From Mesostigma viride (taxonomy: Eukaryota > Streptophyta > Mesostigmatophyceae > Mesostigmatales > Mesostigmataceae): a DNA stretch of 64,000 bases. Shown here piece after piece: positions 12,328 to 59,548 of the stretch. Where the stretch lies: contig RPFO01000359.1 of the NCBI GenBank assembly GCA_009746045.1, forward strand, positions 363,683 to 427,682. The letters run 5' to 3'. The translations under genes were made by a program, and so were the position numbers. The notes beneath the pieces are model-generated. The model worked only from the letters and a program-made list of their open reading frames with translations. It ran no database searches and was not told where the DNA came from. Each line of letters begins with the position of its first letter. Positions within the stretch are counted from its first letter, which is position 1.

Positions 12328-15300
12328 TCATGACAAGGGTTTCCCAGCCATCATGGACCGCAGCAACTGGTACCCATTAAGGGCCAGTCGTGGAAGCTTG
12401 GTCATAGCATCAGCAGGATTTGAGTGTCCTGGCAGATGTATGGTTATACAGTGGCTGGACAACTCCTTTGCCACAAGGTAGTCCAAGTCAGTAGTAGTGG
12501 CCCTCTCATTCTTGATAAAAGAGACCACGGGCTTATTATCACAATAAACCCTGACATCAATCACGGGTTGAGGTCTTATCTGACTCAGACACCATAAGAG
12601 TAGCTCTCTTATGTATATGGCATCGCGAATGCACATGGCGTATGCCCTGCACTCAGCGGTGTCAATGCCAGCAAACCGCCTCCTCTGAAGGTTACTGGAC
12701 CAGTATACCAACGAGGGCTGTTTGCCTTCATTCCTGATGGTGATCAGGCATCCGGCTCTGGCACCAATCTTGTTGGCAGATCTAGACTCTTGGCTAGCAT
12801 CTGTGTAGGCGTCTATGATGATGCGCCCATGCCAGTCTACACCGGACAACACCAAGTCAGGAGATTCATTGAGGCAGCTCTCCAGGCGCCTCCTTCCTTC
12901 TCCTACAACAACAGAGTCTGGCATCCTACTCTGTACTGCCAGGTCAGGGTTAGTTGTGGCAGCCAGCCAACCCAGTTGACCTTTAACCGTAGGGGCATTC
13001 TCCTCAGTTACTCTCTTGGGCAACTGAGTTATTACTTTTTCTTTATACCCCTTCGCCGATTGCAGCTTAAGATGCCATCCTTTGTCATCCTGGAAAAGGG
13101 TACAGCCAATGCCACAGTAAGGTACCTGGCTGTTTTTACTAAACCATGCTCTGGTACCAATAGGGGACTTGTCATTGAGCCTTTTATAGGTCTCATTCAA
13201 CCATCCCTTGGGACCAATGCGTTGCATATCATCTCCATGTAAGGTAGCCCAGGTGGGTTGTCCTTTGGATTGCCCCACAAAGAGACAATAAGCAAGATGA
13301 GATTGTTGCATCTGACATCTCTCCTGGATGGCAGGAGCAATGGTTTCATACCAGATGACTGGACTGCTGACCAGTCCTTCCCAGCCCACTTTAGGCTGCA
13401 TGTAGGGATGACCTACTTCAGCTATCCAGCATGCTGGGGTCTTAACACAACAGGGTCTTTGAGCTTGCCAAGTGGCTCTGGCCACCTGAGGATCACCATG
13501 CAAAAAGGCCCTGGTGAAGTCATCAATTTCTGCTCCATAATCCAAGCCATAGTCCAAAGCACCAAGGTACAGACTAAGAATAAGCCTGAGAACAGGATGT
13601 GACAGGCCAGGAGTGTACAGCTCCTCCTTATCAAAGTCTGTAGTACCATGGAACTGGGTCACGACTGGACGTGCGTTTGGTATGGGAGGCTCACCAAGCT
13701 TGCTCTTCATCTTGCATACAAAACGCAACTGAAGCATTTGAGCATTGGGTGGAGGTTCTGAAATGCCTTCAAAAACATCCAGCGTTTGCCACTCCTGGAG
13801 CGCACGCGCCAATGCTACTCGCCAGGCCTCAAGGCCAGCGAAAGTGTGACAATCCAGGTCTACATCATCAAAGGACATGGGGCTATGAGCAGCAAATGAC
13901 CTTTTTGTGAGACCAAGAGAAGTCACACTGAGCTGGGCGGGTTCTACCAGCTCAGAAGCTGGGGGTATATCCCTTCCCCATTCTGCTCCTTTTATTGAAC
14001 CGACACAGGCGGTCTTCCAATTTGCCTTCTGGAACATTTCAAGAGGCAAGAGACATCTGAATGATTCCAGAGGAATTGGGTCACAATGGGTTTTTAGGAG
14101 ACTCTTTGTGTTATTGGGGCCATCAACAATGGTAACACCGGGAGTCACCAAGAATGGCTGGCCAATGAGAGTGGGTCCCTTATAGCCATCAACAACACAA
14201 AGTGTCAAAGACTCACCCAAGAATGGGATAGTGATATTCCCAAGAACTTGATGATCAGTGTTACCCGCAAAGTCTTGGACAATAGTCCATGGACTGGGTT
14301 CAAGGGAATACTTATCCAGCAAAGCATTAAAGGGCGAGGTGACAGAGACCTCTGCTTTGGTATCCACATCAAAGCCATCAAGGTCCATGCCCTTCTCTAG
14401 AAGAGAAGTTATTTTGGCAATCTTTAGTGAGGGCTTGAGCTTCTTTACAATATCCCGAAGCTCTTGAGGATTGCCTCTCTTGCCGAGCTGAGTGTTCAAC
14501 CTGGACAACCCCTCCTCAGCTTGTCTTCCTTGGGCTGGAATCCCATCAGTCTCCAAGGGCAATGGCTTATTACCAGGGTAATTGGATCCAAGCTTTGGCT
14601 GTTCAGACTGAAATATGTTATCCACCTGCCCAGGGGTCTCAAGCCCATGTTCCAACGGCCGGAGCTTCCGGTGCTGATCAGACACCCTATTATCCAACAA
14701 GTCAGCTTCATCCATATCATCCTGTGATATCCCAGTCAATGTCTTAGGCTGAGCTTGCTGAGTAGTAGGCTCCAGTTGATGGGAGGCCGCCCTTTCTGGT
14801 AGTTGGAGTCCAGCCTGTTCACTGGCCAAAGGTGGACAGGAAAGATTGGGAGATCCAAGTGCCTCTTCAGGGGCCATAATTTCCAGGGGATTTTCTTGAA
14901 CGTTCATTGGATCTCTCTTCAATCTATTCCAAGCCAGATGATAAGTGGTCCCATTCCAGACCACATCAGCAGTTTTCATCTCCAGGTCAACTGAGGTTAT
15001 GGTCCCTGGACCCTGCCAATAACCACGTTTACCAGGAGCATTTTCTTTGTGGAAGATCACCTGGTCTCCCACCTCAAATTTTAATGATTCTCCTCTCTGT
15101 TTATCCTTTTCACAGAGATGAGCATACTGTGCCCACCTCTGCTTACTCCATGCCTGCATGATGTCATCAGGGTAGAGGCCACCTGCTAGTCCACGAGGTG
15201 AGACCAGCCGTGGAACACCACGCACCTTGATAGTATGAAAACGGTTGTTCATGGTGTTTTCCACTTTTGCAGCACCCAAACACCTGACAGCAAAAGTTGG

Positions 15301-16251
15301 TTTAAACATCTCAGGATAGTCCCCGGATATTACCAACTTCTTAAGCTCCTGTATATATCTGTCAACCTTGCCTTGGGCTTGGTGATCTTCACGACCCACA
15401 ATCCTTAGGAAAGGCAGATCAGAGTATTTGGTCAGGCAGTTAAACTGCAAGTCCATCTGCAGCTTATGAATAACTGCAAACTTCTGCAGAATAACAAGAA
15501 CTGCGGCATGGAGAGTATTCTCATCCCCTGCTGCCATAGGTTCAATTCCAATGTAGCCTGACCATTCATCCACAGCCACCAAGTAAGGCAATTGCCTGTA
15601 ATTGGTGAAGTAGAGGATATCAGCTTGTAGATTACCCCTACCATCTGCAGGATGCTTTGCATGACGTTTGGAAGGCTTGTTAGCACACAATTGGCACACA
15701 CAATGTTCTCTGACATCTTGATAAGCCTGCCAGAGAGCCTTGTTATTAATGGCTTGAACAAGCCTAATGGCATTGTTTCCATGGCCACAGGGCAAACTCT
15801 TAGCCAGAGTCCTAAGATTAATACAATCATTAGGCTCAGGCTCTTCAGGACATGGACGGGCATCCACGTTCCTGGCAGAGCAAGAGTCCAAGTTTTTATT
15901 ATCAATATAACAAGGATTATTGCTCTGAGGAGCTTGACTGTTAACAATATCAATGGGTGCTTGGCTACAAACAGGAGCTGCACCACATGTATTGTTCACA
16001 GATACGTTGCTCACCTGGGCAACACCATGTGGCATCTGTCTACAACCAGGAGCAGATCCACATGTATTATTTACAGGAAGAGTTCCCTCTGGGGTACTCT
16101 TTTTATTCCAGGCATGGATAGGAATGCCACAAACAGGGGCACTTTTACTGCTGCTCACTGGGGCAGCTTTACGGTCAGTAGGGGTTACTGCTGGAGCCCC
16201 TACCACCTGGCAGGCCTCATCTGCCATGAGTCCACTCTCATCAGCATCCAT
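12328..16251 (-). CDS. E3 pol polyprotein: integrase, protease, RT, RNase H
   Basis: An intact 1,307-residue polyprotein. An integrase zinc-binding segment (ending CVCQLC, near residue 185) leads into the catalytic core with QADILYF and QMDLQF carrying the first two acids. The third position reads GKVDRY, where Glu is usual. A clan-AA protease follows with VDTKAEVSV (DTKA at 14353-14364) and a later GPTLIGQPF. Then comes the RT with IDDFTRAFLHGD and the catalytic box LHGDDM (13228-13239), where copia has YVDD. RNase H shows AYTDAS, TAECRAY, YCDNKPV and NPADAMTKL. Protease lying after integrase is contrary to the normal copia order. The start at 16251 follows gag in a different frame by about 40 bp. 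Confidence 0.88.
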   Translation of the reverse strand: MDADESGLMADEACQVVGAPAVTPTDRKAAPVSSSKSAPVCGIPIHAWNKKSTPEGTLPVNNTCGSAPGCRQMPHGVAQVSNVSVNNTCGAAPVCSQAPIDIVNSQAPQSNNPCYIDNKNLDSCSARNVDARPCPEEPEPNDCINLRTLAKSLPCGHGNNAIRLVQAINNKALWQAYQDVREHCVCQLCANKPSKRHAKHPADGRGNLQADILYFTNYRQLPYLVAVDEWSGYIGIEPMAAGDENTLHAAVLVILQKFAVIHKLQMDLQFNCLTKYSDLPFLRIVGREDHQAQGKVDRYIQELKKLVISGDYPEMFKPTFAVRCLGAAKVENTMNNRFHTIKVRGVPRLVSPRGLAGGLYPDDIMQAWSKQRWAQYAHLCEKDKQRGESLKFEVGDQVIFHKENAPGKRGYWQGPGTITSVDLEMKTADVVWNGTTYHLAWNRLKRDPMNVQENPLEIMAPEEALGSPNLSCPPLASEQAGLQLPERAASHQLEPTTQQAQPKTLTGISQDDMDEADLLDNRVSDQHRKLRPLEHGLETPGQVDNIFQSEQPKLGSNYPGNKPLPLETDGIPAQGRQAEEGLSRLNTQLGKRGNPQELRDIVKKLKPSLKIAKITSLLEKGMDLDGFDVDTKAEVSVTSPFNALLDKYSLEPSPWTIVQDFAGNTDHQVLGNITIPFLGESLTLCVVDGYKGPTLIGQPFLVTPGVTIVDGPNNTKSLLKTHCDPIPLESFRCLLPLEMFQKANWKTACVGSIKGAEWGRDIPPASELVEPAQLSVTSLGLTKRSFAAHSPMSFDDVDLDCHTFAGLEAWRVALARALQEWQTLDVFEGISEPPPNAQMLQLRFVCKMKSKLGEPPIPNARPVVTQFHGTTDFDKEELYTPGLSHPVLRLILSLYLGALDYGLDYGAEIDDFTRAFLHGDPQVARATWQAQRPCCVKTPACWIAEVGHPYMQPKVGWEGLVSSPVIWYETIAPAIQERCQMQQSHLAYCLFVGQSKGQPTWATLHGDDMQRIGPKGWLNETYKRLNDKSPIGTRAWFSKNSQVPYCGIGCTLFQDDKGWHLKLQSAKGYKEKVITQLPKRVTEENAPTVKGQLGWLAATTNPDLAVQSRMPDSVVVGEGRRRLESCLNESPDLVLSGVDWHGRIIIDAYTDASQESRSANKIGARAGCLITIRNEGKQPSLVYWSSNLQRRRFAGIDTAECRAYAMCIRDAIYIRELLLWCLSQIRPQPVIDVRVYCDNKPVVSFIKNERATTTDLDYLVAKELSSHCITIHLPGHSNPADAMTKLPRLALNGYQLLRSMMAGKPLS

Positions 16252-16289
16252 AAGGACGCTGTAGGGGTTATATAAACAGAGAGGATCAT

Positions 16290-17345
16290 CTAGTTTTTCT
16301 GCTGCTGCTTCCTCTTGCGGCCACGAGAGGTATTGCCACCCCGCGGCTGAGAAGCATCACCACCACGCGGCTGGGAAGCGTCACCACCACGCGGCTGAGA
16401 AGCGTCGCCACCACGAAGGGCACCGCTCTTGACGGCTTGGGAGATCTGCTGCAGCAGCTTGAGGACCTCCATCTGGGTATCCTTGGGTCCAGCGCCCGCC
16501 TTGCTCCTGCAGGCAGACGCATCATGTCCAGAATTGCCACAAGACTTGCACTTGCGAAAGTAGCAATCCTTAGCCAGATGGTTAGTCCTATTACAGAAAG
16601 TGCAGGGAGGGAAGGACTCAGAATTAGCGACAACCTTACCCTTACATGCGCGGCGTGTGTGCCCGGGCTGCCCGCAGTTGTAGCAGAAGATTTCCCGTTG
16701 CTGCTCCATCACCATGGCGACACGAGGCACCTCCGCGGCACCTCCTTCTCTGGAAACACGGGTTTGATTCGTCAGGAGCTCCTTGAGGTGAGCTCTGCAT
16801 CGGTGAGTGTCGCACAGGTAACCGCGGCAGTTGGCGACCAAATTCCGCTTCTCGGATTCGGACAGAGCACAGTTTTGGATCCATCGGAGATTCACCGCCT
16901 CGTCAGGCCACCGGAGCCCCTGCTTCTCCAGCATGTCGTAGTAAGAGTTGAGGTGCTCGATGATGGTCTGCCCGGGCTTCGGTTTTGCATCTACAAATTC
17001 CTCGATCTCGTCGCAGGTTTTGGCAGTGATAGAACGAAGAAAAGTCTCCCTCGCTCGGCGCAGAAACTCGAACGGCGACCACCGCAGACGCTGTGCTCTA
17101 TCCAGCAGCGAAATCCACTCTGGGTGGTTTTTCTCGCGGTCTCCCAGCGGGGTTCCACGAAGAAACTCCAGCCAGTCCGGAATGATGTCTCGGTTGCCCG
17201 CGAGCCTGCGGAAAAACGGCCCAAGAGAGCTTACAAAGCGATCCCGGTCTGCTTGAATAGCACCAGGCACCAGCGGGGCTGGAACCCATTTCTTGATTGC
17301 CGACAGCAGCTTCGCCTCCTGAAGCAAGGTCTCCCGCCGAAGCAC
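16290..17345 (-). CDS. E3 Gag with three zinc knuckles
   Basis: A nucleocapsid-type protein of about 350 residues that would package element RNA. The N-terminal two thirds are helical (GPFFRRLAGNRDIIPDWLEF). Three CCHC knuckles follow, CYNCGQPGHTRRAC, CTFCNRTNHLAKDC and CKSCGNSGHDASAC, where copia Gags usually have one. The C-terminus repeats GGDASQPR three times and ends in a basic tail. The ORF as bounded begins with GTG; the reading frame continues upstream, so the true start may be an ATG nearer the 5' LTR. The gag stop is TAG, and pol restarts in another frame. Confidence 0.85.
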   Translation of the reverse strand: MLRRETLLQEAKLLSAIKKWVPAPLVPGAIQADRDRFVSSLGPFFRRLAGNRDIIPDWLEFLRGTPLGDREKNHPEWISLLDRAQRLRWSPFEFLRRARETFLRSITAKTCDEIEEFVDAKPKPGQTIIEHLNSYYDMLEKQGLRWPDEAVNLRWIQNCALSESEKRNLVANCRGYLCDTHRCRAHLKELLTNQTRVSREGGAAEVPRVAMVMEQQREIFCYNCGQPGHTRRACKGKVVANSESFPPCTFCNRTNHLAKDCYFRKCKSCGNSGHDASACRSKAGAGPKDTQMEVLKLLQQISQAVKSGALRGGDASQPRGGDASQPRGGDASQPRGGNTSRGRKRKQQQKN

Positions 17346-17546
17346 CTTATCACGCGCACGCTGGTTGTCACTACTATAGTACTTCCCTGCCCGCAGCCCT
17401 CCTCCCGGGGCTGGTCGGACATATCCTTATTGTCATCCCTGTGCTCGCCTGGGCCAGGGTCGACAGAAAATTGAGCCGGTCCGTGCTCACCAGGGCCAGA
17501 CCTCTGCTCTGAAAGATTGTCGTCCGAAGACATCGCAATGAATACA

Positions 17547-19731
17547 AGTTGCAAATAAATGGAATGCGATGTAAATCAGAAAGCATGAAATGAACGTTGT
17601 GTTTATTGTTCTCATACGTTATTGTCGTTGTTGCATAATTCGTCTTCGTTGCGCATATATTCTGTTGCGCTTGGCACCTTCATCAGTCTTGCTGAATATC
17701 CTACGTGGACATGCATTCCGTGTAGTTCAGTGCATGCCGCGTGTTAGATACTTCTAGAATCCTCTAGCCCCTAAATGGTCTGGCTGCCGATTTTCCGCCT
17801 AAAACTGAGTTACAGCCGACACGTCGGCACCTTCTCGGGGGACCAAATGCCGCGAAAACTATTGAGAATTAGGAAACGTTTAGCTGAGAAGATCGAAAGT
17901 TTATAATTTTCCTCACAGCATGGTACTAGGTTTTGCATACTTCTGACAAAGTTATAGAGGTGTTCTGGCCGGTCAAAGTACAAGGGGTCAGGGTACTTTT
18001 TCACGTACAACGTGCATTCCGGAAAACGACGACCTGGCCATGGCGGCTTGCGCCCACGCATGGCATTTACGTTTTCGTTCGAATTTTCTGACCAAACTCA
18101 GGAAATTGATTTTATACGTCCTAAAGATGATACAGGCCAATTTTTGGTTCGCGGGAATGCCATTTGATAGGTGTCGGCAGCGTTCTTGCTGGAAAAAAAT
18201 GCGATCAGGCCGGACGATAGAAACGTTGACAGCAATACCTTTCCGGCGTATTTTAAAGGATATATTGGTTTCTTTGTACTTTTTATGATACATGGTAGTC
18301 GTAAACGTGCAAGGGTGGCCAGAAATCGCCGAATCCAGCGACCATGCTGCACAACTTTGGTGTTCCGAAATGCGCCATTTTGCGGCCACCGCCTGGGCCA
18401 AGGTAACGCCATCCATGCCTGGTAAAGCTTAATCATCGTTTTCCTATCGATGTTTGACGTTTATATATACGTTCTAGCTTGTGTAGCACATTCTTTTTGC
18501 ATTATTCATGCTCTTTCTTGACCCTGGCCTGGCCCCTTTCTAAAACACCCTTCTTAGATGCTTCCCTCAGTCAGTTGACCTGCCACAGGGTGATGGTGAA
18601 AAGTTTTAGAGGCTGTATGGGTTTGAATACCTCCATATATGTTTGTTATACATTTCCCACACACATATTGCATGAGTGTGAGGCAGTTGGCTGGTCTCTG
18701 TGGCGTCATCAAGCATGTAACCGGTGAGTAGAAGCTTCCCATTGTCAGCATGTGCCACCAGGTGTGCTGGCCATCACCTGGCAAGCTATAGCAGCTTAGG
18801 CCTAGTTTATCCTTGCTAGGGCAAGCTGAAATAGGCTTAAAATCACTAGTTTGTTGGTGGCTGCCTCCTAGAATGCATGCCTTGCGTAGGGTATCCGCAC
18901 CACGTTACCTACGTGCATGGACAAGGTGGCACCTGCACATAGGTGCCATGTAAGGGCAGTGTGATGATGCAGTTATGTTTCCCCATCATTGTGGAAGGGA
19001 AATGTATTGTGTGGCATGGTTGGGGGCCATATTAGTAGGTATTAGTAGGTAGTATGCCCACTCCTACCCCCTTGGTTGCTTTTTACCAACGGTACCCCTA
19101 TGGGCTGTACTGGGTGTAACTGCTGGTATACCCACCCAAATGATGACCCCAATGGCTCAAACTGTTCAGCAACTAATTGTTTATCATCCCTGAAGTGGTA
19201 GGTGCCTAGCTCTTACAACATAATTCAAAATGCACATTCTACCAAAAATGAAAACGCTCGTCTTGACCCCCCTGACTTTGAAGGCAGTTATACATGGCCT
19301 ACCCTGCATATATGTAAGGTTGTGATATACCAACCCGAAGGGCAACTCATGGACATGCTTGGCCCCCAAGGACAGCCATTGGATATGGGTGGGTTGGATG
19401 GCATCTGGTTTGCAAAATTGTGAAGTTACAGCCGATGCATCGGCAGTATTTCTGCCCATTTAGGGGCTAGGAGGTACCAAGGCAGATGCGCATACATGAT
19501 AGGCCGATAGTCGGCTCAGTCCTACTGACAGGACTACACCGGCCCTTGACCAGCCGCTGACGTGGAGGCCTGGGAGACGCCCACACATTCTACGTGGTGT
19601 TATCCCATTGGCGAGTACTAGTGAAGTACAGCCATTGGCCCAATACTACAATAAAGTATATTGTAGTAATCTGTACAAGATCCTCTATCTCTGAGGACCC
19701 ATGTGGACCCTAGATGGGTCTCCAACCAACT
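17547..19731 (-). repeat. 5' LTR of E3, interrupted by a DNA transposon
   Basis: Outside the nested insert (17768-19466 plus a 4-bp duplication) it is 482 bp, exactly the length of the other E3 LTR. On the element strand the internal region starts TGTATTCATTGC right after the LTR. This does not resemble the usual initiator tRNA primer site. Confidence 0.88.
17768..19466. mobile_element. Non-autonomous DNA transposon, CCCCTAAATGG termini
   Basis: A 1,699-bp insert in the E3 LTR. Termini are inverted CCCCTAAATGG ... CCATTTAGGGG, flanked by CTAG duplications (17764-17767, 19467-19470). The uninterrupted LTR at 11578-12059 gives the empty site. Near both ends the sequence GTTACAGCCGA precedes a short palindrome (GCCGATGCATCGGC on the right). 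No transposase is recognisable. The superfamily is unassigned; a 4-bp duplication with an 11-bp inverted repeat is not enough to place it. Confidence 0.82.
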
Positions 19732-20810
19732 CTATAAGGGAAATCTCATCAAGCTATTGAATGAGGACTACGGCGTGGAGGTGTCGGCAATGTAGGAGTT
19801 GGGGGACATCGACGCCCCTCCGCTTCCGGTACTAGAAGATCCAGACAAGGACAGGGAGGTGGTGCTTTTGAGCGAGGAGGGGTACAAAGATCTAGAGGGG
19901 AGAATCGGAGGCACGGTTCCACTTTCACCGTACGAAATGCGTCTTAAGGCGGTGTACGAACTGGCTCACCGGTTGTACATGATTCCGTATGATCTCATCA
20001 ACGACGAGCTCCCTCGAATTCTGGACAAGGAGATGGGAAGGAAGGCGTACGCTGGCATTCGTCAATATTCGAAGTTGACGGGACTGGGAACCAAGGAGCA
20101 TTTCAAAGACAATCTGTTGATTCTGCAGAAGTCAGAGTCCTTGTTTGATCTGAAGGCGTATTCTCGTTTTGGACTAGCACAGTCTCTGGCCATTACGCTC
20201 AAGCTACTAGAAGGGACGCCTATCATCGACTTCATCACGACGGCTGATCCGTCCAATCTCACATGCAATGAAGTTGACGCGCGACGAGACGATTGCACTA
20301 GGGAATAAAATTGACAGCGAAATCGCCGACAAGGCCTGGTTCATGCGCTCAACATTTGGATACCAACGGCGAGCAGGCGAGGCTTGTAGCCTTTCTTTTG
20401 CACAATGTAGCGGTCTCATCAAAAGGCTGTTAAGCCCGACTCTGGGAATTTCTGCCAAGGGGGCGAAGGGCAACAGTCGCGGCGGTGGTTACTTGGAAAT
20501 TTCAAAGGCGGACATGCACGCGTTTCTTGATAGGTATAAACCCTCGTGGTGGGGCGATGAGAAGGATTATTCGATAGCGTCGTTGTCTGGCCTGTCGATG
20601 GATGAAATCGCCTCTTTCCTGCAGGGAGCGGATAAGTAATTTTAATATTTTAATAAAAGCCTGTTTCTGCCATGCATTTCTTTGTAAAGATAGTTTACAA
20701 CCTCCAGGACGTCGCGCTCAATGTCTCCTCATCGCCGAGTAGACGTCGATCCGGTTCCAGTCACACCCCGCCGCGCGGCCCTCGCCGCCTCCCTCACCAT
20801 GCGAGGCCAT

Positions 20811-25664: not shown

Positions 25665-25832
25665 CCTTCTCTCAGTTGACCATTGGCCCTAGCAAACAGT
25701 AGAGGAGACTATTACTAGGGAGTAATACTAGGCTCTATATTTATAGATCTATAGCACGTGGTTGCTCTCTCTCTCTCTCTCTTTCTTCCTGGGGAGGTGT
25801 TGCCTGCAGTGTAAGGTACCGGTACGAGCACC

Positions 25833-26134: not shown

Positions 26135-26169
<35 letters not shown>

Positions 26170-47473: not shown

Positions 47474-48152
47474 TGTCAGGGTTTTGATCCTATGATCATG
47501 TGCCCAACTGCCTATGTGAGATAATTGTGTTTGTGGCCATCCTGATGTACACGGAGGTATTAGGGTTTGCGTCCCTAATAATCGCACCCGCCTGCCGTAT
47601 ATCTGGCCGATATAATTAATAGGCTAAGTAGGGCTTGCTGTGATATTTCCGGCACAATTTGTAGCAGTGAAAATAGTGCCGTATAGAAAAAGTTACAGAG
47701 TGCCGAAGTTGTAATTTTGGCACAATACTTTTCGTACCTACGGTGTCAGAATTACTTGGATCATTGCTTGCGTGGCTGTGTCCATAAATGATACTAGCGG
47801 ACACACTAATAAGGCGTGACAAAATGTTTAAGTTGAGCCGTATGCACTTGTGGAAAGAAATCTGATATACTAGGTAGAGTACCAAGTGCTGGGCGCCGCG
47901 CCCTTCACCCATGTATGGGCCAAATGCATCCAACGCCCACGAATGCGCCGCTCCTAGCTGGACGGCCAATATTGCGTGGTTTTGTGACTTGCCAGCTTTC
48001 AGGCAGGCAACGTAGCATTTAACCTTTGGGTTGTCTCCTTAACAATTATGCCTCAGGCTCCGCAATAAAAACTGGCTATGGTAACAAAGTTGAGATGAGT
48101 TACACATGCAATATATAATTTCGAGACGACTCCTAGGTCTATTTTCTTGACA
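47474..48152 (+). repeat. 3' LTR of the gag-only element
   Basis: Second 679-bp copy, apparently identical to the first. Confidence 0.93.
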
Positions 48153-49036: not shown

Positions 49037-50640
49037 TTAGATGAACGCGGATCAGTGAGTTTCTGGTCTTCCCAAGATGTGATGAATGGAGCCATGGTTT
49101 CAACCAGCGGCTTTTAACCTTTACCACAGTTGCCTCACTACCCTGTGGTCACTAGCCTGAGGCGGCAGTACCCACGGACGGTGTTGGGAAAAGACGCTTG
49201 GCCACTGCTGTGTCCGAGCCTTTCTAGGTCTCACCATTGCTGCCAGGCCTTGCACGCCTTGGCAGGTCCGCCACTGTCAATTTCCTTGGTTGCATCAATC
49301 CAGGACGTCTGTCCTTCCATGAATGACAGTAACGCTCTGGATTTATCCGTCATGACAAGTACCCGTCCATCCCAGGCCTGCAGGACTGCCAGTCCTGAAG
49401 TCCTGTGACATTCTTGGTACCATCAACCAATATTGACCACAGTACCTCCTAGTGACAGTCGGTCCTGTGACACGTAACGTGTGATGGTTCACCCAACACT
49501 GCCACGTGCCCTGTCCCTCACGTGTCCTTAGTCCTGGTACTGCTGTAGCGTCCGGCGGCATTACTTCGGGACTTGATAACTCTCAAGTTCCTTGTCCAAA
49601 TGAGGCGTTTAGCACGGCGTTGGAAAGGCCACTTCAAGTATGATATGCTTAGCATATTGCATCACCAATATGCTAACTCCAACCCTTTCTTGTTTTGGAG
49701 CTGCAAGCTTCACACCATGACCAACCCATTCCTTGCTGCCTTGTGAAATGGACACCTGGTTACCCTGGACTTATAATAAGCCTCATGAGCACCCCTTTTG
49801 CCACCTTAATGGTATCCTTCTTAGGGATCTATGGTTCAACCCTGCCATCTGATCATTAACTTGACCTGCAGGTCATCCCCAACCCTTTCTTTTGCAACTG
49901 TACCTTGGCTTGGGCTTAAAGGAGGATATTGAATATTCCTTAGGCAACATATCCTGGATATCTGAATGAGAGGCCCTGACTACAGGAAACGTATTACAGT
50001 GAGTTCCTGGTCTTCCCAGTTATCACTGGCGCCCGTTTCATGGCGCCCGCCCCGAGCGTTCCAGGCATCATCCATCCAAATGTTCACCAATGGAAACCAC
50101 TTCAACACCACTGTGCCACTGCTTGATGGGGAGCCCATGTCATCACTGGGTGTTAAAGCCCAGGAGTCATACATACCAGGCTGTGGCTCAACTAGGGAAT
50201 CGAACCCTACCCCAGAACCCCAGGTTAAACTTAACCTGGTCACATGACAGACAACAAGAGAGATTGGCATACAACATGATTATGTTTTATTATAGAATAT
50301 CCACCAAAACCAATGTTGAGTGTTCCCAGTGGACCAGCCTGCACCAGCAAGGCCCAACTGTCAGGTTACAACACCATAATATCCAAGGTTGTCACTTATT
50401 CACAGCTAAAGAAAACTAAACAAGAGAGATATATACAAACAACCTGGAAGAACTCTCAACATGGCCTGCCCTGTCATGGCCTAACTGCCCGAGGCCAAAG
50501 GCATCCCACTGTGCTAATCCTTTACAGGAAGAGCTTGCTCCTGTTGAGCCTTCTACCTGCTTGGTGACAGGTAGGCTACCTGTTGCCCTCCCCCCTGGGG
50601 ACAACAGCACTGGTCAGCCACCAACTGGCAAAGGCTGGAC
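49037..50640. other. Non-coding region downstream of E1
   Basis: No convincing gene. The phrase CAGTGAGTT(T/C)CTGGTCTTCCCA appears at 49054 and 49997, about 940 bp apart. A GGTTCGATTCC B-box-like sequence is at about 50196-50206 on the minus strand. This stretch should contain the 3' end of E1; a candidate LTR edge AGTTGG lies on the minus strand near 50627, but no partner LTR confirms it. Confidence 0.35.
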
Positions 50641-50641
50641 T

Positions 50642-52000
50642 TCAAGTCCCACCAGAAAAGGGGTCCATGAGCCCTTTGAGCACAGGGTATTGTAGCTCAG
50701 CCTTGCTCTCCAGCTTGGTGAGGGCGTCTGCTGGGTTGTCAACACCAGGCACATGTTCAAGATGAGCAAGGTAAGACATCTCCTTCAGCAACAAATAATC
50801 CAGATCCCTGCTCCTGGCGAGCTGTCTGTGCACAAACTGCACCATGCCCATGCTGTCTGTCTTGACCAGTGTGTGCAGCTGCAAGCTACAGGAAGCTACC
50901 TGACAGAGCTGGTAGAATAACTCCCTGAGGTAAAGAGCAGTGTGTAGCCCCTCACATATTGCCCTGCACTCAGCAATGTCACTGCTGGGCGTCACCCTGT
51001 TCTGTAACCTACTGTACCAGCTGACCAGAGAAGTGTGCTCCTGTTGTAGTGTAATGAGTGCTGCTGCCCTACCCCTGACATCCGTCACCTTCCTGCTGTC
51101 CATGGAACTGTCCACAAAAAGCACCATGTTGAGTGGTTTGTACAAGTCCACAGCTGCCAGTATGAGTGGAGGTGAGCTCCTGACAGACTCAACCACCTGC
51201 TCTGCCCCTACCTCAACCAGCTGAGCATCTGTGAGCCTACTCAGCACCAACAAATCTGGGGCACAAATGCTAGCTAGCCAAGCCAACATTCCCCTGATTG
51301 TGGCACACCTGGCCTGGGTAATGGGCTGCTGGAGGGCATCAATGATCTGCTGAGGATAGTTGTTGCCACCCTCCATCTTGATAAACCAAGTACCTGCCCT
51401 CTTGATCAGCGTGGCCTGCATTCCACAAAACACCATGGGCTCATCCTGCTTCATGTGCTGGACCTTTCCTAACTCAAACCTCTTCTGGATCTTGGACAGT
51501 ACTGAATCCACCCACTCAGGAGGCCCTAAAAGGTGCAGGTCATCTCCATGCAGAGATGCAAACACAGGCAACCCTTCATGAGTACTCTGGAACAAGCAAG
51601 GATCAACTGGAGACACAGTAAAGCCACAGTGAGTTTTCAGAAACTTTTCCAGGCTCTTTCTCCAGATGATAGGGCTGGACCTGAGACCCTCCAAACCCTT
51701 GAGTATTCTGAGATATTTTGACTTGATCTCTGCTCTCCACACCTTGGGCACTGTTACAAAGAAGGGAGGGATATCACGCCACGTCTCCTTGGCCTGCTCC
51801 ACATCACCCTTGAGAAAAGCCCTCTTGAAATCAATCAGCACAGAGCTGTACGCAATGCCCTTGACCAGGAAAGACAGATATATACACAGAACAATCCTCC
51901 AGGTATCATGCAGCATCCCAGGCGTATACAACTCCTCATCTGTCAGCTCCCCCGTGCCATGGTACTCAGTCACAACTGGCCTCACATGTGGCACCTGCAC
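50642..52000 (-). CDS. E1 reverse transcriptase and RNase H
   Basis: 452 codons. The RT opens with VRPVVTEYHGTGELTDEELY and has IDFKRAFLKGD, then the catalytic SLHGDDLHLL (HGDD at 51539-51550) and FCGMQATL. RNase H shows FVDSSMDSRK, IAECRAI, VKTDSMGM and NPADALTKL. It overlaps the protease ORF by 19 bp in another frame. Alignment with E2 and E3 indicates one continuous polyprotein interrupted by a one-base change near 52005, so this is a break or a programmed shift and not a separate gene. Confidence 0.8.
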   Translation of the reverse strand: MQVPHVRPVVTEYHGTGELTDEELYTPGMLHDTWRIVLCIYLSFLVKGIAYSSVLIDFKRAFLKGDVEQAKETWRDIPPFFVTVPKVWRAEIKSKYLRILKGLEGLRSSPIIWRKSLEKFLKTHCGFTVSPVDPCLFQSTHEGLPVFASLHGDDLHLLGPPEWVDSVLSKIQKRFELGKVQHMKQDEPMVFCGMQATLIKRAGTWFIKMEGGNNYPQQIIDALQQPITQARCATIRGMLAWLASICAPDLLVLSRLTDAQLVEVGAEQVVESVRSSPPLILAAVDLYKPLNMVLFVDSSMDSRKVTDVRGRAAALITLQQEHTSLVSWYSRLQNRVTPSSDIAECRAICEGLHTALYLRELFYQLCQVASCSLQLHTLVKTDSMGMVQFVHRQLARSRDLDYLLLKEMSYLAHLEHVPGVDNPADALTKLESKAELQYPVLKGLMDPFSGGT

Positions 52001-52860
52001 CCGTCTATCTCCTTCAGCTTGAGCACAAACAAGAGCCTTAGCAACTGATGCTCCCTGGGCAACTCATCCACAGGCTCAGCACAGTTAGACACTATCCAGT
52101 CATGCCCACTGGAGACAAACCCTAGAATCCATGCCTTAGCCATCTTGGGGCTTTGCATCAACTCTACCAACTGGTGCCAGGAAATAGGACTGTGACCAGC
52201 AATCTGGTACTTGTGCACCCCCAAGTCCCGTGGATCTAGGGTGGTTGGGATGATCAACAAGTCCTCAGCAATGGGCTCCTTGCCTTCAGGCCCCACACTC
52301 TGCTGCCCCTTCACAGCCTTGACTGCCACAGCTAGACCCTTGGAGTAGTGATATCTCTGGAGGGGCAAACTGCCATGACCTTCTAGTGCAAGCTCATCTG
52401 CTGACAGAGTCACTCCTGGCATGCACAAGAAATTCTGGCCCAAAATGGCAGGCCCCTGGTACCCTTCCACCACACAGAACGCAGTGGGGACACCCAGGAT
52501 AGGCACAGTCACTTCCCCTAGGATCTTCATTGTTACAGTGCCCGTAAAGTCACTCACTGCCCTGCAGCCAGCCTTATTCACCTTCAGGCCCTGAGCATCC
52601 TCCACCCTGATGATAGACACCTCTGAGTTAGTATCCACTTCTAGGGTAGCAGCCCAGCAAGAACCCCATTCAGTCAACTTAGATACCTTGGGATCCTTGT
52701 GCTTGTTGAACATGAGCGACCGGACAATGTCTGCCATGAGTGGCCTCTTGGACCCTGGTGCAGGCCCAGCCCCCGTTGGCTCCACCACAGGTGATGCAGT
52801 TGCCTCCTGCACCTCATCATCATCAGAGGGATAGCCACCTCCCACGTCAGTGACAGGCAC
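51982..52860 (-). CDS. E1 aspartic protease segment
   Basis: 292 codons. The first 60 are an acidic/Pro linker. Residues about 74-150 are a clan-AA protease: LEVDTNSEVSII (DTNS at 52624-52635) where DTG(A/S) is expected, then VSDFTGTVTMKILGEVTVPI and the second motif GPAILGQNF. The following 150 residues lead into the RT (LLFVLKLKE). It lies between integrase and RT, not before integrase. A frame change near 52862 separates it from the integrase ORF. Confidence 0.72.
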   Translation of the reverse strand: MPVTDVGGGYPSDDDEVQEATASPVVEPTGAGPAPGSKRPLMADIVRSLMFNKHKDPKVSKLTEWGSCWAATLEVDTNSEVSIIRVEDAQGLKVNKAGCRAVSDFTGTVTMKILGEVTVPILGVPTAFCVVEGYQGPAILGQNFLCMPGVTLSADELALEGHGSLPLQRYHYSKGLAVAVKAVKGQQSVGPEGKEPIAEDLLIIPTTLDPRDLGVHKYQIAGHSPISWHQLVELMQSPKMAKAWILGFVSSGHDWIVSNCAEPVDELPREHQLLRLLFVLKLKEIDGCRCHM

Positions 52861-52865
52861 ATCAA

Positions 52866-54176
52866 CTACCTGGTCCTAACCTGGCCCTCCAGCCAACACT
52901 GGGGTCCAGGCCCGTCTGCAGGCCAGATTGCATGTGGCTTGCGTTCCTTGACGTTGGCCCAGCTCAACCTGTAAACATGCCTGGGATTACTCTCCAAGGC
53001 CACAAGGCAGGAACGATTGGCATCTTCCACACAGGTCACCACCCCGTTCTGCCACTTGCCCCTCTTGCCCTGCATTGATGGCTCCTTCCACATTCTGACC
53101 TTCAGCCCCACCTGAGGCCTCAGCACATTCCAGCCCCTATCCTTGCGTCTCAACTGAGCAAACACCCTGTCTGCTTTCCTCAAGCAAGCCTGGACCACTT
53201 CCTGGGCTAGCATCCCAAACTGCAGTGCTACAGGATTGACAGCCACCCCGTCATAATAGTAGTTTATTCTGAGGTTCAACTGTTCTTCCACCTGCCTGGT
53301 CCACACTGCCCTCTCCAAAGCAGATGCTACCAGTGGCACCTTAGGTTCTGCCAGCACTACGGTCTTGACCTCCCTGATGGATCTCTCCACAGCACCTTGC
53401 TGTCCATGGCTCTCCCTGGGCGTGACCAGCAGCTTGCATGGCAGTTGCTCCTGCTGTGACAGTAGGCACTCAAACTGAATATCAGCCTGTACTGTCTTGT
53501 ACACCCCAAAGCCTGGTAAGAGAGTCTGCAAGCCCAGCAGCAGGGTATTCCCCTTCATATCTGGCAGAATCTGGAGCAGCCTGTACCTGCTAAATCTGTC
53601 CACTGCCACCAAAATGTATAAGCCCCTGATATGCTGGACGTCTACCTGGATGTCCCCCTTCTCCCTGGCAGGCTCCCTAGCATGGGACCTTGGCTTCTTG
53701 GCAGCATTCTCCTTACAAGCACATTGCTCAGCTGCAGCCCTGCATGCTTCCCTCAGTGGCTCATCTCCAATCTTCCAACCAAACATCTCAGCCATGGCTG
53801 TGTGACCAAAGATATTGTGCAGCCTGCGTCCAGCATCCGTGTAGCTCAGTTGCCTAGCCAGATTACGCACCTGGGAAGACGCCTGGACGGGCCCTGCGTG
53901 TGAGGACGCAACATCCACCTTCTGCATCTTGGATCCAGAGGACCCAGCAGACCCTCCCAGCAGAGCATCTAGGCTCCCAGAGCCAACCCTGTCTGGGGAC
54001 CCTCCACCTGTTGACAGTTGAGGGGATTGTTGTGCTGCAGCATGCATGCAATCTTGTGGAATGAGAACATCAGTACACCCCTGGTGCTGATCAGAGGTGG
54101 CACCCTGCCCAGATTTATTTACATGTGAAGCTGTGTCCCCACAGGGTGTCTCACTATGTACACGGGACTGCTTCAC
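52866..54176 (-). CDS. E1 integrase
   Basis: 436 codons, in frame with gag across a single TGA. After a variable leader, the zinc-binding region (HNIFGHTAMAE ... CACKENAAKK) precedes the catalytic core: QVDVQHIRG (first Asp), QADIQFEC (second Asp), QQGAVERSIREVK (Glu). A C-terminal module follows with VGLKVRMWKEPSMQGKRGKW, like the SH3-type end of integrases. Integrase inserts the cDNA into the genome. Complete DDE suggests it was functional. Confidence 0.8.
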   Translation of the reverse strand: MKQSRVHSETPCGDTASHVNKSGQGATSDQHQGCTDVLIPQDCMHAAAQQSPQLSTGGGSPDRVGSGSLDALLGGSAGSSGSKMQKVDVASSHAGPVQASSQVRNLARQLSYTDAGRRLHNIFGHTAMAEMFGWKIGDEPLREACRAAAEQCACKENAAKKPRSHAREPAREKGDIQVDVQHIRGLYILVAVDRFSRYRLLQILPDMKGNTLLLGLQTLLPGFGVYKTVQADIQFECLLSQQEQLPCKLLVTPRESHGQQGAVERSIREVKTVVLAEPKVPLVASALERAVWTRQVEEQLNLRINYYYDGVAVNPVALQFGMLAQEVVQACLRKADRVFAQLRRKDRGWNVLRPQVGLKVRMWKEPSMQGKRGKWQNGVVTCVEDANRSCLVALESNPRHVYRLSWANVKERKPHAIWPADGPGPQCWLEGQVRTR

Positions 54177-54185
54177 TAGTCACTT
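54177..54185 (-). promoter_or_regulatory. Candidate stop-codon readthrough site between E1 gag and pol
   Basis: Gag ends with AAG TGA CTA G, and the frame continues open into the integrase. UGA followed by CUAG is a known strong readthrough context in eukaryotes and their viruses. So Gag-Pol may be made by readthrough instead of frameshifting. Confidence 0.6.
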
Positions 54186-55481
54186 CTGATCAGACTGCCC
54201 CTTCTTCTTGTTTGGGCAATCCCTCTTCCAGTGACCTTCCTTGCCACAAGCAAAACACTTGCTCTTGCCAGACCCTCCTCCTGGGGCCTTGCTGTCCTGC
54301 TTGTTCTGGTTGCCTGAGGCCTGATTGTTATTCTGCCCCTGGCCACCACCCTTACCCTGCTGATGGCTGTTACGGTTGCCAGACTGGTTCCCCTGATTCT
54401 GGTTCCCCTGCTGACCTCCTCCACCACCCTGGTTCTGCTCCTTCTGGGTCTGCTTCCTTCTCCTGCTACCATACCGTGTCCCAGATGGGGTACGGTTCTT
54501 GCCCTGGCTAGCCTGAGACGCTGACCCTCCCTGAGAACTGATACCCTTGCAGGTAGGGACCCGGGTCCTGAAGTTTAGTATCACACGCTTCAGAGCCCCC
54601 CAGGTGCCATCAGTGAGATCACAGAGCTGTCTAGCAGTAGCCCTACCTTCCTCTGACAAGCCCATCTTATCAAAGAAGTGGTCTGCTGCTGCCCTGACTG
54701 TCACACTGAAGCCCTGCTTCTTGCCTGCCTCCACGATCAACTCAAACCTGGCCAGCTCAGCAGCCACCTCACCCTTGATCTCAAACTCATCAAATTCTCT
54801 CTTCTTTTCCATGGTGAGATTGTGAACCCTGTCAGAAAACTCCTCCTTGATGTCATCTAGGAACTGTAGCCAAGTGTGCCCCTCTTTCAGAGCATGCCTA
54901 GCCATGTCATTGACCCTTTCAGACGACCCCTTGTTTGCGGTGGAAGAGTGAAACACCCTGACAATATCCACACCTGCTGCGACAGAGCCCACGACTAGCT
55001 TCATGTCATCAAGCCATTTATCCAGGTTATCTTGCCTCAGGGGAGGGTTGAGCGCTTTCTGCCCATTCATGACTGTCACAGCATCAGAAAATGGACGGGT
55101 GCCGGGCAACACACTCCCCACACGCACTGGTGGTGCCTGGGGAGGGTCAATCCTAGCCTCCAAACGCTCGGGCAACATACCAGACACCCTATCGTGAACA
55201 GCAGCTTGCTTTGCAGCACGCACACCTGGGGTGACGATGGCGTCCTCCTCACCAGGCGTTGTGAGCACCACTGCCTCCGTAGGTCGCCTGGCACGCTTGA
55301 CTTTCTCCGCCTCAGCTTGCCCATCACGCCACCGCTTGTGTGTTCTCCCGGCTCTGGGGTCCATCTCTGGGATAGGTTGCCCAGCTGGCGCCTCCACGCC
55401 CCTCTCCTCCATCGCCTCCCCTTCCTCTCTGGCGATGTCCTCCTCTGCCGTTCGCTCCCGTTGCTCCTCGAATGTCGCCGC
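54180..55481 (-). CDS. E1 Gag (3' 98%; its first codons lie at 63016-63034)
   Basis: About 440 residues. The E2 insertion after codon 8 separates the true start (ATG at 63034, MPRRASRG) from the rest; removing E2 and one ACCCC copy restores the frame. The N-terminal third is acidic and variable. The capsid-like core includes PLRQDNLDKWLDDMKLVVGS and ARFELIVEAGKKQGFSV. The C-terminus is Gln/Asn/Gly-rich with one CCHC knuckle CFACGKEGHWKRDC. An apparent in-frame ATG at 55499 comes from the E2 LTR. Confidence 0.82.
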   Translation of the reverse strand, partial: AATFEEQRERTAEEDIAREEGEAMEERGVEAPAGQPIPEMDPRAGRTHKRWRDGQAEAEKVKRARRPTEAVVLTTPGEEDAIVTPGVRAAKQAAVHDRVSGMLPERLEARIDPPQAPPVRVGSVLPGTRPFSDAVTVMNGQKALNPPLRQDNLDKWLDDMKLVVGSVAAGVDIVRVFHSSTANKGSSERVNDMARHALKEGHTWLQFLDDIKEEFSDRVHNLTMEKKREFDEFEIKGEVAAELARFELIVEAGKKQGFSVTVRAAADHFFDKMGLSEEGRATARQLCDLTDGTWGALKRVILNFRTRVPTCKGISSQGGSASQASQGKNRTPSGTRYGSRRRKQTQKEQNQGGGGGQQGNQNQGNQSGNRNSHQQGKGGGQGQNNNQASGNQNKQDSKAPGGGSGKSKCFACGKEGHWKRDCPNKKKGQSDQK

Positions 55482-55486
55482 ACCCC

Positions 55487-55865
55487 AGTTATGCAACACA
55501 AAGCTTGGAATGCTTGGGCACTGCCAAATGGCGTGTGTGTGCGTGAACGACGAGACACCTTGGCATTAGGATAATGTGGCACATATACTGCTGGCCAGCC
55601 GTCAACGATGGCTGGCCAGACTTTGCGTAAGTTAAACTAACTTACTGATCCTGGACGGACTAGCCTATCAGTTACAACCTGATCTAGTCAGTCCTAACAT
55701 GACAACTACAGTCCCGGTACTGAGGTACCGGCTCATCACATACTGAGTACAGCCACGTGTCCATGCCACGACTGCTCTAGTCCAGCACCGTCCCAGTACC
55801 CAATTGGGCGCCGGCGGTGCTGGCACGTGTCCACTTAGGCTACAGGCGGGAGACTTAGACTAACT
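55487..55865 (-). repeat. 3' LTR of E2
   Basis: 379 bp, on the element strand AGTTAGTCTAAG...GTTGCATAACT. Confidence 0.93.
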
Positions 55866-56248
55866 CCCACTTTAAGTTTTCTTTGGGTTTCAACAGAAAC
55901 ACACATAGCCATCAAATGGACGCAGCCATTCCCAATGCCTTAAAAAACTGTCAGATAACCTACTAGGACCCAAAGGTCACCTCACACATGTACAAGAGAT
56001 GCATTAAAAAGGCCCCATGTCTCAAGCATGGTTTCTTAACTGAGTGAGATGGGTGCTCCAGGCCCCAGCATGTCATGGTCATCCAAACAAGTGTCTCACA
56101 AAATTTTATTCAATAAATAACACATTCATCATGTCCCAACTTTCTAGACCAGTGCTTCTCACTGTCAGAAAACTACCCAGCTGCCACTGCAGCCTTTCAG
56201 CTGCAGTATTAGGCAGGGGGTCATGGGCTAACATGTACAATGTGCCAG

Positions 56249-59200
56249 TCACTTCAGACTGTAACCAGGGTTCATCAACCCATACAAGACCTGGTATTGT
56301 GGTCCTGCTGCTTGTGGCACCTTGGTCAGTGCATCTGCAGCATTGTCTTTGTCCCTGACGTGGGCTTTAGACTCCAGGTACTTGCATTCCTGTTTTAGCA
56401 CAATCCAATCCAGGTCCGAGTGTACAGCCAAAGGATTGGCAAGGAAAGAGATGATAGATTGAGAGTCAGTCAGCAAATGTGCTTTCACTCCTGCAGAGCT
56501 ACCAGCCTGGTGTTGAAGCCAGACCAGCAAGTGATTGAGATACCTTGCATGCAAGACAGAAGATACCACAGCCCTGCATTCAGCTACATTGCTACTCACA
56601 GCTTTCCTCTTGTGCAATCTACTGAACCAGGAGACTAGTGACTTCTTCCCACCTTGGTTATGCAGGAAAAACAATCCAGCCTCTCTGGCTTGAACCTTGG
56701 TAACTACCCTGGACTCCATTGAACTATCCATCATGCACGTGATGTGAATGGGAGTAAACAGGTCCAGTGAGTGAAGCATCAAAGGTGGACCATCATGCAA
56801 CAACTGCTTGATTGCCCGTGCTCCTACCTCCTGTAGTACCTCATCATCTACCCTGCTCACAAAAGCCAGGTGGGGTGCACATGTAGCACATAGCCAACCA
56901 AGCTTGCCTCTAATGGTAGGGCACATGTCAGGGGTGATGTGAACAGGCAGGACATCCAGACAAGACTTAATGTATTCAGCAGAGGCCTGCATGGAACAAA
57001 CCCAGCTGCCCTGCTGCTGCAGCAACTCAAGCATCATGCCACAGAACTTGACTGGCTCCTTGCCCAGCTCTAGCTGCTTGCCAATCTCAAAACTGGCAGA
57101 CACCTGAGCTATGAAAGCATCCACTGCAGCTCTAGGACCTGAGATTAACTGATCATCCCCATGCCAGACAAACATCATCATTCCATCAGGGTGTGGGATG
57201 ACAAACAGGCAAGGGTCAATGTCATCATAGGTGGCCCCTAGCTTCATGAATACCTCCTGTGCAGACAGCCTAAAAATTTTTGGAGCTGACTGCAACCCTT
57301 CAACCCCCAGGTTTGGCCTCAACAAGGGTTGAACAATATCCCTGTGCCACACCTTAGGAGTATTCACCACGTATACCTGACCTCTCCAGACCTGCTGTGC
57401 TATGGCAGGGTCCCCCTTTAGAAAGGCTCTTTTGATATCTGTGGCTTTACACACATAATCCTTCCCTGTATTAAGCTGATGCAAAAACAAGGAAAGCAAC
57501 ACCTTGAGAGACGTTTGCTGAATACCAGGAGTATAAAGCTCAGCCTCTGTCAGCTCTGTAGAGCCCCTGAACTCAGTAACACATGGCCTAGCATGGAAAA
57601 TGGGTGGTCCCCCATCAGCCTGAGGTTTATGCTTGCACACAAACTTTAACCTTAGCTTCTTGGCTCCAGCTGGCATAGCATCAAGAGGAGTCACAGGTGG
57701 TGTGTGTGTGGGACTACGTGCATCTGGAACAACCCACTCCTCCCTGGCTTTGGTAAAAGCCTCAAGCCACTTAAGAAACCCAATCTGCGTCTGGCAGTCC
57801 CGTACAATATCATCATAGGACAGGGGAGACATGGATGCAACATCCCATCTACCAAGCCCAAACGCTGAAGGGTGTAGCTTTTGAGAGTGTATGAGGTCCT
57901 CCACACACGGTTCCTGACCTGGGAGGTACTTGGGCTTAACTGCATTGATGGCAGCATCCAACCCAGTGCTAATCTGGCTCAAAGGGATTTTAAAATGATC
58001 TAGAGGCACCTGTCCTACCCCTGCCACACTCAACCTCCCAGCTGAGATGACAACACCAGGGTAAGATACAAAAGGTTCCCCTAACAGGGCATTCCCTGAG
58101 TAACCCTCAACCACCTGAAATGGAGTGGGCATACCCAAGATTTGAATGCTCACCTGACCTTTGACCTGCATTTTGGTTTTGCCTGAAAAATCTGACACTC
58201 TAGCCCATGGTGAGGCCTTCATTTTCAGACCAGATACAGCTTCTGCACTGATGATACTCACCTGTGCTTGGGTGTCTACAGCCAAAATACTAGGATCTTG
58301 ACCTGCATCCCCTACAGCATTGACCTGTGCTGTACCTGTTGCCACAACTGCTTTAGTGTTGTGTGCCTTGTGCAAGGCCTTAAGAATCTCAGCAAATGAC
58401 TTCCTGGGAACGACAGGATCTGCTCTATTTTGTGACTCCTCCAGGTGTGAGGGAGGTGCTACCTGCTGCTCACCCTGTGCACCGTCCTCCTGCCCAGGTG
58501 GACTATTGGGTTGTAGTGGGGCTGCACTACTGAGGAACACAGGAGCTTCTACTGTGGTACTAGTGCTTGCATCAATGACGTCCTTAGCCAATTCATTGGG
58601 TGAGATCAATCCACCAGACTCCTGCTCTGAATCCATGTCCAAGAATTCTACCCCTGACACGTCTGCCAGTGGTGGGTAATAAAGCTTGAGTCTATGCTTG
58701 CTGACCACACGCTCTCTGTCATGTTGTATAGTGACTGCAGTCCCTTCTTCATGAATTTTGGTGACTACAGCTGGACCGTGCCATCTGGCAGAGTGTGCTC
58801 TTCCTCTGTCACCCTCTCTGAAAAACAACACATGGTCCCCCACTTCAAACACAGGCCTGGCATTATTTTTGTCTTTCTTTGCCAGCAACTTGGCTAAGTG
58901 CTGCCTTTGTGTGTTGTAGTGAGTGTGTACCTCTGAAGCATAGCTGCCTGACTGAAGGCCAGTTGGGGTGATTTCCCCAAAAGGTGAGGACATTATTGGT
59001 TTGGCGTTTAGCTGGGTAGTCACCCCTGCTGCCCAAGATGCCCTGTCAGCATAGCTACCAGAGTCAGCCAACCTGGATGGCATTTTTCTTATCACATCCC
59101 TGATGGCTCTCATGGTACGTTCTACCAACCCCTGACGTTCATGATCTTGAGCCCCAGACACTTCTATCTTGGGCAGGTCATTCCTGTCCTGGATGCAGAG

Positions 59201-59548
59201 AAACTGCTGATCCAGCATTACTTTTTCAATGGGGTGAAAACGTGCCAAGGCTATCTGTAAAGCTCTGTGCAGCTGCTCTTTATCCATCCCAGGCAGGGGC
59301 TCCACTACCACAAACCTTGACCAGGCATCCTTTATGACTAGGTAGTATACCGTGTCCTTCACCACGTGTATAACATCCCCAACCAGTTTGCCTCTAGCCA
59401 GTGGTGGTGTGGCCACATGCCATTTTCTGGGCTTAGGAGCATATAGCTGACATTGCTCACAGTGCTTACGTACGTGCCTGCACATCTGTTCCAGATCATG
59501 GCCTTGTATTTTATTGGCTAGCCTTTCAGCCACAGCCTCATGGCCCAT
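56249..59548 (-). CDS. E2 pol: integrase, protease, RT, RNase H
   Basis: 1,099 intact codons. The zinc-binding part (LHKVMGHEAVAERL just upstream, then CRHVRKHCEQCQLY) leads to the core acids: VGDVIHVV, MLDQQFLC and RQGLVERTMRAI. After a linker rich in Pro and Glu, the protease shows LAVDTQAQVSII (DTQA at 58265-58276) and GNALLGEPF. The RT has DIKRAFLKGDPA and the catalytic VWHGDDQLIS (HGDD at 57152-57163). RNase H shows MMDSSMESR, AECRAVV, LTDSQSI and NAADALTKV. The start lies after upstream gag sequence in another frame; the real polyprotein probably begins further upstream. Confidence 0.88.
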   Translation of the reverse strand: MGHEAVAERLANKIQGHDLEQMCRHVRKHCEQCQLYAPKPRKWHVATPPLARGKLVGDVIHVVKDTVYYLVIKDAWSRFVVVEPLPGMDKEQLHRALQIALARFHPIEKVMLDQQFLCIQDRNDLPKIEVSGAQDHERQGLVERTMRAIRDVIRKMPSRLADSGSYADRASWAAGVTTQLNAKPIMSSPFGEITPTGLQSGSYASEVHTHYNTQRQHLAKLLAKKDKNNARPVFEVGDHVLFFREGDRGRAHSARWHGPAVVTKIHEEGTAVTIQHDRERVVSKHRLKLYYPPLADVSGVEFLDMDSEQESGGLISPNELAKDVIDASTSTTVEAPVFLSSAAPLQPNSPPGQEDGAQGEQQVAPPSHLEESQNRADPVVPRKSFAEILKALHKAHNTKAVVATGTAQVNAVGDAGQDPSILAVDTQAQVSIISAEAVSGLKMKASPWARVSDFSGKTKMQVKGQVSIQILGMPTPFQVVEGYSGNALLGEPFVSYPGVVISAGRLSVAGVGQVPLDHFKIPLSQISTGLDAAINAVKPKYLPGQEPCVEDLIHSQKLHPSAFGLGRWDVASMSPLSYDDIVRDCQTQIGFLKWLEAFTKAREEWVVPDARSPTHTPPVTPLDAMPAGAKKLRLKFVCKHKPQADGGPPIFHARPCVTEFRGSTELTEAELYTPGIQQTSLKVLLSLFLHQLNTGKDYVCKATDIKRAFLKGDPAIAQQVWRGQVYVVNTPKVWHRDIVQPLLRPNLGVEGLQSAPKIFRLSAQEVFMKLGATYDDIDPCLFVIPHPDGMMMFVWHGDDQLISGPRAAVDAFIAQVSASFEIGKQLELGKEPVKFCGMMLELLQQQGSWVCSMQASAEYIKSCLDVLPVHITPDMCPTIRGKLGWLCATCAPHLAFVSRVDDEVLQEVGARAIKQLLHDGPPLMLHSLDLFTPIHITCMMDSSMESRVVTKVQAREAGLFFLHNQGGKKSLVSWFSRLHKRKAVSSNVAECRAVVSSVLHARYLNHLLVWLQHQAGSSAGVKAHLLTDSQSIISFLANPLAVHSDLDWIVLKQECKYLESKAHVRDKDNAADALTKVPQAAGPQYQVLYGLMNPGYSLK

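Follow-up and report, generated by a model that had tools for sequence, protein, structure and literature searches.

A 64,000-nucleotide stretch of the Mesostigma viride genome (assembly GCA_009746045.1, contig RPFO01000359.1, positions 363,683 to 427,682; hereafter the window) carries three long terminal repeat (LTR) retrotransposons, E1, E2 and E3, in which the protease (PR) lies between the integrase (INT) and the reverse transcriptase (RT) with its RNase H (RH). This order had been noticed in a first-pass annotation of the DNA and is confirmed here: each of the three encodes, in turn, INT, a clan-AA domain of the form DT[KNQ][AS]xVS...[LI][LI]G, and RT-RH. The INT-PR-RT-RH order is common to five families of the genome (E1 to E5) and to P0007, a protein from a database contig. 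These elements, here called E-type, very probably form an LTR retrotransposon lineage of their own, with Gag(CCHC)-INT-PR-RT-RH as its domain order, which combines a copia-type RT-RH, a retropepsin between INT and RT, and a short-spaced DD29E integrase. Their features are as follows.

11578-19731, minus strand: E1 element, LTR to LTR, ends AGTTG...CAACT
16290-17345, minus strand: E1 Gag frame, three CCHC knuckles
12328-16251, minus strand: E1 pol frame, INT-PR-RT-RH, 1307 amino acids, -1 frame relative to Gag
14047-14418, minus strand: E1 retropepsin domain, motif DTKAEVS...LIGQPF
49035-64000, minus strand, continuing past the window to L009:732: E2 element, ends A[CT]TTAG...CTAACT
49035-49678 and L009:89-732, minus strand: E2 LTRs, 5-bp duplication GGTTG
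54180-55486, minus strand: E2 Gag, one CCHC knuckle, stop TGA CTA G
52866-54179, minus strand: E2 integrase frame, catalytic D, D and E, 31 residues between the last two
52330-52692, minus strand, inside frame 51982-52875: E2 retropepsin domain, motif DTNSEVS...ILGQNF
50642-52063, minus strand: E2 RT-RH frame, with LHGDD and ADALTK
55487-63010, minus strand: E3 element, LTRs 55487-55865 and 62632-63010, ends AGTTA...TAACT
60311-61825, minus strand: E3 Gag frame
59649-60110, minus strand: E3 CCHC knuckle frame, joined with pol in one open frame in other genomic copies
56249-59626, minus strand: E3 pol frame, INT-PR-RT-RH
57971-58333, minus strand: E3 retropepsin domain, motif DTQAQVS...LLGEPF, used for structure prediction
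315-872, plus strand: E5 RNase H end, with knuckle, INT, PR and frame-broken RT upstream in L030

The elements examined for their boundaries, E1, E2 and E3, all have an LTR pair flanked by target duplications of 5 bp (for E1 CTATA, at 11573-11577 and 19732-19736; for E3 ACCCC, at 55482-55486 and 63011-63015), the mark of INT-mediated insertion. E3 is inserted in E2 near the start of the E2 Gag frame. E2, lying in pieces at 50642-55565, is the only other INT-PR-RT element in the window, because 25833-31275, a candidate for E2 that was rejected, is an ordinary gypsy element whose long pair of open reading frames has the order PR-RT-RH-INT. The right LTR of E1 is interrupted by a 1.7-kb insert (17768-19466), probably a DNA transposon, whose ends CCCCTAAA/TTTAGGGG are inverted and which has CTAG on either flank. 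At the end of E1 Gag (16290-16299) stands G AAA AAC TAG, a possible ribosomal frameshift site, with pol in the -1 frame; at the end of E2 Gag, TGA CTA G (54176-54182) is in frame with the integrase frame downstream. TGA CTA G is a known context for stop-codon readthrough.

Outside the window, E4 (L031) carries INT-PR-RT-RH in one open frame of 1196 amino acids, and P0007, from a 6224-base ENA contig, does so in a single protein of 1214. One genome was searched (440 Mb, 2243 contigs), and protein-database relatives are those among the matches listed in two protein searches, with about 8000 scored candidates in each; relatives outside the genome were few among these matches. The nearest named proteins, P0004, P0005 and P0011, are jgi/Mesvir1 gene models. 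P0012, a fragment in the protein set of the dinoflagellate Prorocentrum lima, is close to the E3 and E5 proteases (62% to E3 over the aligned part; compare L030:3432-5741), and contamination or horizontal transfer are candidate readings. P0011 and P0012, which carry PR only, were excluded from the INT and RT sets, and P0004, which begins within the PR domain, stands outside the set of eight PR sequences. P0005, P0008 and P0010 were unused, the first because its match covers 11% of the query and the others because they are pieces of the window's E3. E5, with its RT frame broken in the copy at hand, was excluded from the RT tree and the RT-RH profile; it is also outside the set used for the upstream-PR profile test. 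Scans of viral contigs with P0007 and P0003 revealed no relatives, and in 200 kb of contig C1690 (L010-L029) there was one gypsy element but none of E-type.

The claim that no protease lies between the Gag knuckles and the integrase was borne out by both a motif scan and a profile test. A scan for D[ST]G[AST] in the three minus frames upstream of the integrase in E1, E2 and E3 returned only one match, in the acidic, serine-rich, low-complexity start of E3 Gag. Against a copia-PR profile the pre-integrase segments scored 11.3-12.9 in all five cases (E1, E2, the E3 copy L003, E4 and P0007), values reached by 16-41 of 100 shuffles; the three ordinary copia controls scored 313-352, which shows scale only, because these controls are themselves in the profile. 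By raw score, a gypsy-PR profile gave these segments 8.6-14.1, on a par with the 9.3-14.8 of the copia controls. The knuckle-to-integrase distance is 124 residues in L003, whose frame is open.

Profile comparison places the E-type RT-RH clearly with copia rather than gypsy, with E values of 1.3e-16 against three ordinary copia elements (439 columns) and 0.5 against two gypsy RT-RH sequences. Pfam RVT_2 matched below its cut-off in E3 (29.4), E2 (27.2), P0009 (26.3) and P0007 (15.5) and gave no match in E1, E4 or P0004, and RVT_1 gave none in E1, E2, E3, E4, P0004, P0007 or P0009; the fragments P0009 and P0010 bear a precomputed RVT_2 label in the protein database. On the genome as a whole RVT_2 finds at least 150 ordinary copia places, and all 150 that were scored lie above cut-off at 148-178 bits, against a maximum of 29.4 for the E-type RTs scanned. 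The RT active site reads HGDD in the E-type and HVDD in the copia controls. In an RT-RH tree of 11 rows, the 6 E, 3 copia and 2 gypsy rows separate, and the branch between the E and copia rows, the latter drawn from the E genome only, measures 2.13 changes per column. The L034 row of RT-RH is shortened by a frame break, and L035, which repeats L032, was excluded from the copia profiles.

The integrase triad is D-52..55-D-29-E, the last spacing being 29 in five of six sequences and 31 in E2, and in E1 the third catalytic residue is D instead of E. Integrases of Ty1/copia have the spacing DD35E, which the E-type integrases do not show. Both INT (0.022 against gypsy, 0.62 against copia) and PR (0.011 and 0.22) come out nearer gypsy by profile, weakly; since copia and gypsy score 0.0026 (INT) and 0.025 (PR) against each other, such nearness does not settle the origin of either domain.

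The copia and gypsy orders named in the first-pass annotation were also found in this genome. All four ordinary copia loci that were read, of three families (L032 and L035 belong to the same one), have a knuckle, a WV[LV]D[ST][GA]A[ST][SY]HM protease, integrase and RT, in the order PR-INT-RT, and the window's gypsy element is PR-RT-RH-INT. E-type elements resemble Ty1/copia (Pseudoviridae) in their type of RT-RH, CCHC Gag, 5-bp target duplications and an INT ahead of RT-RH, but their PR follows INT and is not of the D[ST][GA]A[ST]xHM type, their INT is DD29E, and their LTR ends are not TG...CA, unlike those of the window's copia-type Gag-only element (TGTCA...TGACA). With Ty3/gypsy they share a PR directly ahead of RT and the weakly nearer PR profile; on the other hand INT comes first rather than last, RT-RH is not gypsy-type, and the Gag-PR-RT-RH-INT order of that group is found in none of E1, E2 and E3. 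Gmr1-like gypsy elements are likewise LTR elements with a pol order unlike that of their RT relatives, but they join a gypsy RT to an INT placed upstream as in copia (Goodwin and Poulter 2002, cited in PMC3587641 and PMC2774666), whereas the E-type joins a copia-type RT to a third order.

The middle domain is predicted to adopt a retropepsin fold. An AlphaFold model of a longer PR piece (pLDDT 44) was discarded, sequence searches of the PDB with alignment A1 and with P0012 returned no retropepsin, and NCBIfam gave nothing useful. Asp and Thr are kept in all eight PR sequences, in part through the way these were chosen, since the domains were located through the pattern DTx[AS]xVS, which members with another motif would escape. 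The second motif, hydrophobic-hydrophobic-Gly, is present in all eight as [LI][LI]G[EQD][PN]F, 63-65 residues past the Asp. PR identity between families is 35-69% (five pairs compared), the highest value being that of E3 and E5, whose PR (dN 0.25, dS 1.97) is better conserved than their INT (46%). The amino acids of the middle domain are conserved while synonymous sites are near saturation, a pattern that fits purifying selection on all domains with no special role for PR; the dN/dS ratios are rough because dS is near saturation throughout. No canonical protease upstream, then, and a predicted retropepsin in the middle: these are the two points on which the first-pass annotation had staked its reading. 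The retroviral-like protease domain of Ddi1, which keeps D-S-G, is part of a cellular protein and not of a retroelement, unlike the E-type PR.

Several observations weigh against a distinct lineage with a working protease between INT and RT. The Gly after Asp-Thr is near-invariant in retropepsins, and in the place of a D[ST]G triad all eight E-type sequences read DT[QNK][AS], with Gly replaced by Q, N or K. Between E2 and E4, PR (43% identity) is less well conserved than either INT (46%) or RT-RH (56%). The E group in the RT-RH tree has a support of 58/99, with three open forks and long branches, and E2 and E3 have broken frames as they stand in the window; open-frame E3 copies are present elsewhere in the genome. 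The proposal of a distinct copia-like lineage is supported by the order common to the five families and P0007, with the corrections that the term copia-like holds for RT-RH only and that the protease triad is altered; monophyly of the RT has just the support given above. The features held in common, namely domain order, the altered triad, the spacing within the integrase and, in E1 to E3, the LTR ends, argue for one origin, of which the RT tree alone is no proof.

The lost Gly and the low PR identity of E2 and E4 also speak for an alternative that accepts the order but takes the middle domain for a clan-AA part without catalytic activity, kept for a dimerising or structural role, Gag-Pol being cut by a host protease or left uncut. 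This we regard as unlikely, though still deserving of serious thought, as Asp and Thr are retained (within the bias of the search pattern), and in E3 and E5 PR is the better conserved domain. Moreover, the amplified ordinary copia elements also lack the Gly, their protease reading DSAAS rather than DSGAS in three of four loci (L032, L034 and L035) and two of three families, so that its loss is not confined to E-type elements in this genome. A crustacean copia with DTGC, described in a passage of PMC3587641, keeps it. With moderate confidence, we read the E-type as a third pol architecture outside ordinary copia, with a protease loop permanently without glycine and a DD29E integrase acting on A[GCT]TT...AACT LTR ends.

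It is also conceivable that INT-PR-RT did not come from a rearranged copia but represents a third arrangement, ancestral or of independent origin, that predates the split of the copia-type orders. The long branch from E to the three ordinary copia rows, the different D-E spacing of INT and the weak leaning of PR and INT towards gypsy would suit such a history, but RT-RH is clearly copia-type and the arrangement is known from one genome and few sequences outside it. A tree with copia from the E genome only does not decide the matter, and we consider this history doubtful.

Less probable again is that the lineage has already been described under another name, as an algal or protist copia-like element, perhaps in a repeat library that has no accompanying publication. 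The literature search covered open-licence full texts (titles, abstract starts and passages), with repeat libraries outside it, and within that literature no paper with the INT-PR-RT-RH order was found. In the main texts of the Mesostigma genome papers (PMC6947507, PMC7027972) the words copia and gypsy occur zero times. According to passages of one large plant survey, its 5410 copia elements were defined by GAG-PROT-INT-RT-RH and unexpected orders were removed as likely mispredicted (PMC6317226), so that survey would not have retained INT-PR-RT elements.

Finally, hardly any credence can be given to an artefact in which nested insertion, recombination or mis-assembly brought a foreign protease into copia elements: the window is rich in nested elements (E3 in E2, the insert in the E1 LTR), but the order is identical in five divergent families and P0007, E1, E2 and E3 are each bracketed by LTR pairs and target duplications, and the idea is contradicted by dozens of open copies, nearly identical and spread over many contigs. 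E3 has at least 42 scored matches in the genome, 41 of them stop-free, at least 28 at the top score (the window copy included), and in at least 10 the open frame runs to 1287 amino acids; E4 has at least 38 scored matches, all 38 stop-free. So many near-identical copies suggest recent spread.

How such an element might work can be sketched. In E1, ribosomes would slip into the -1 frame at G AAA AAC TAG to make Gag-Pol, and in E2 they would read through the TGA CTA G stop. The middle domain may then pair as a homodimer in particles and, as the element's only protease, cut Gag-Pol by means of the Asp of DT[QNK][AS], the integrase staying tethered to Gag until the dimeric PR cuts. As for its source, PR may have been brought beside RT through an exchange of modules, with a gypsy-like element as the possible donor, and the copia protease before INT may have been lost.

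The remainder of the window holds other repeats and genes. A family of palindromic repeats, about 230 bp long and nested in direct as well as inverted orientation, occupies 31251-32037, where the gypsy integrase is broken, and recurs 9 kb away at 40321-41121. The Gag-only element (45290-48152) has two 679-bp LTRs that are 100% identical (TGTCA...TGACA), a target duplication GTGAT and TGGTATCGG after the left LTR; its Gag gives a copia-type match to PF14223 at 18 bits, below cut-off. Two identical 524-bp repeats 1.5 kb apart (5354-7362; TGTCT...AAACAT, with GGTATCGGAGC after the first) are probably a small non-autonomous LTR element. A virus-like gene cluster at 2680-11624 includes a Pox_A32-like ATPase match (3940-5085), below cut-off, and a Herpes_ori_bp helicase match (10638-11624) above it at 50 bits.

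The classification of LTR retrotransposons relies on the order of pol domains as one of its main criteria, and there is a blind spot here: E-type proteins fall below Pfam cut-offs or go unmatched in the scans made here, and one large survey, by its own account of its filtering, discarded other orders (PMC6317226). A successful INT-PR-RT-RH lineage of several families shows that a changed order need not stop an element from spreading. The modular exchange of PR and INT becomes testable, and the predicted fold would offer a natural retropepsin without the Asp-Thr/Ser-Gly triad.
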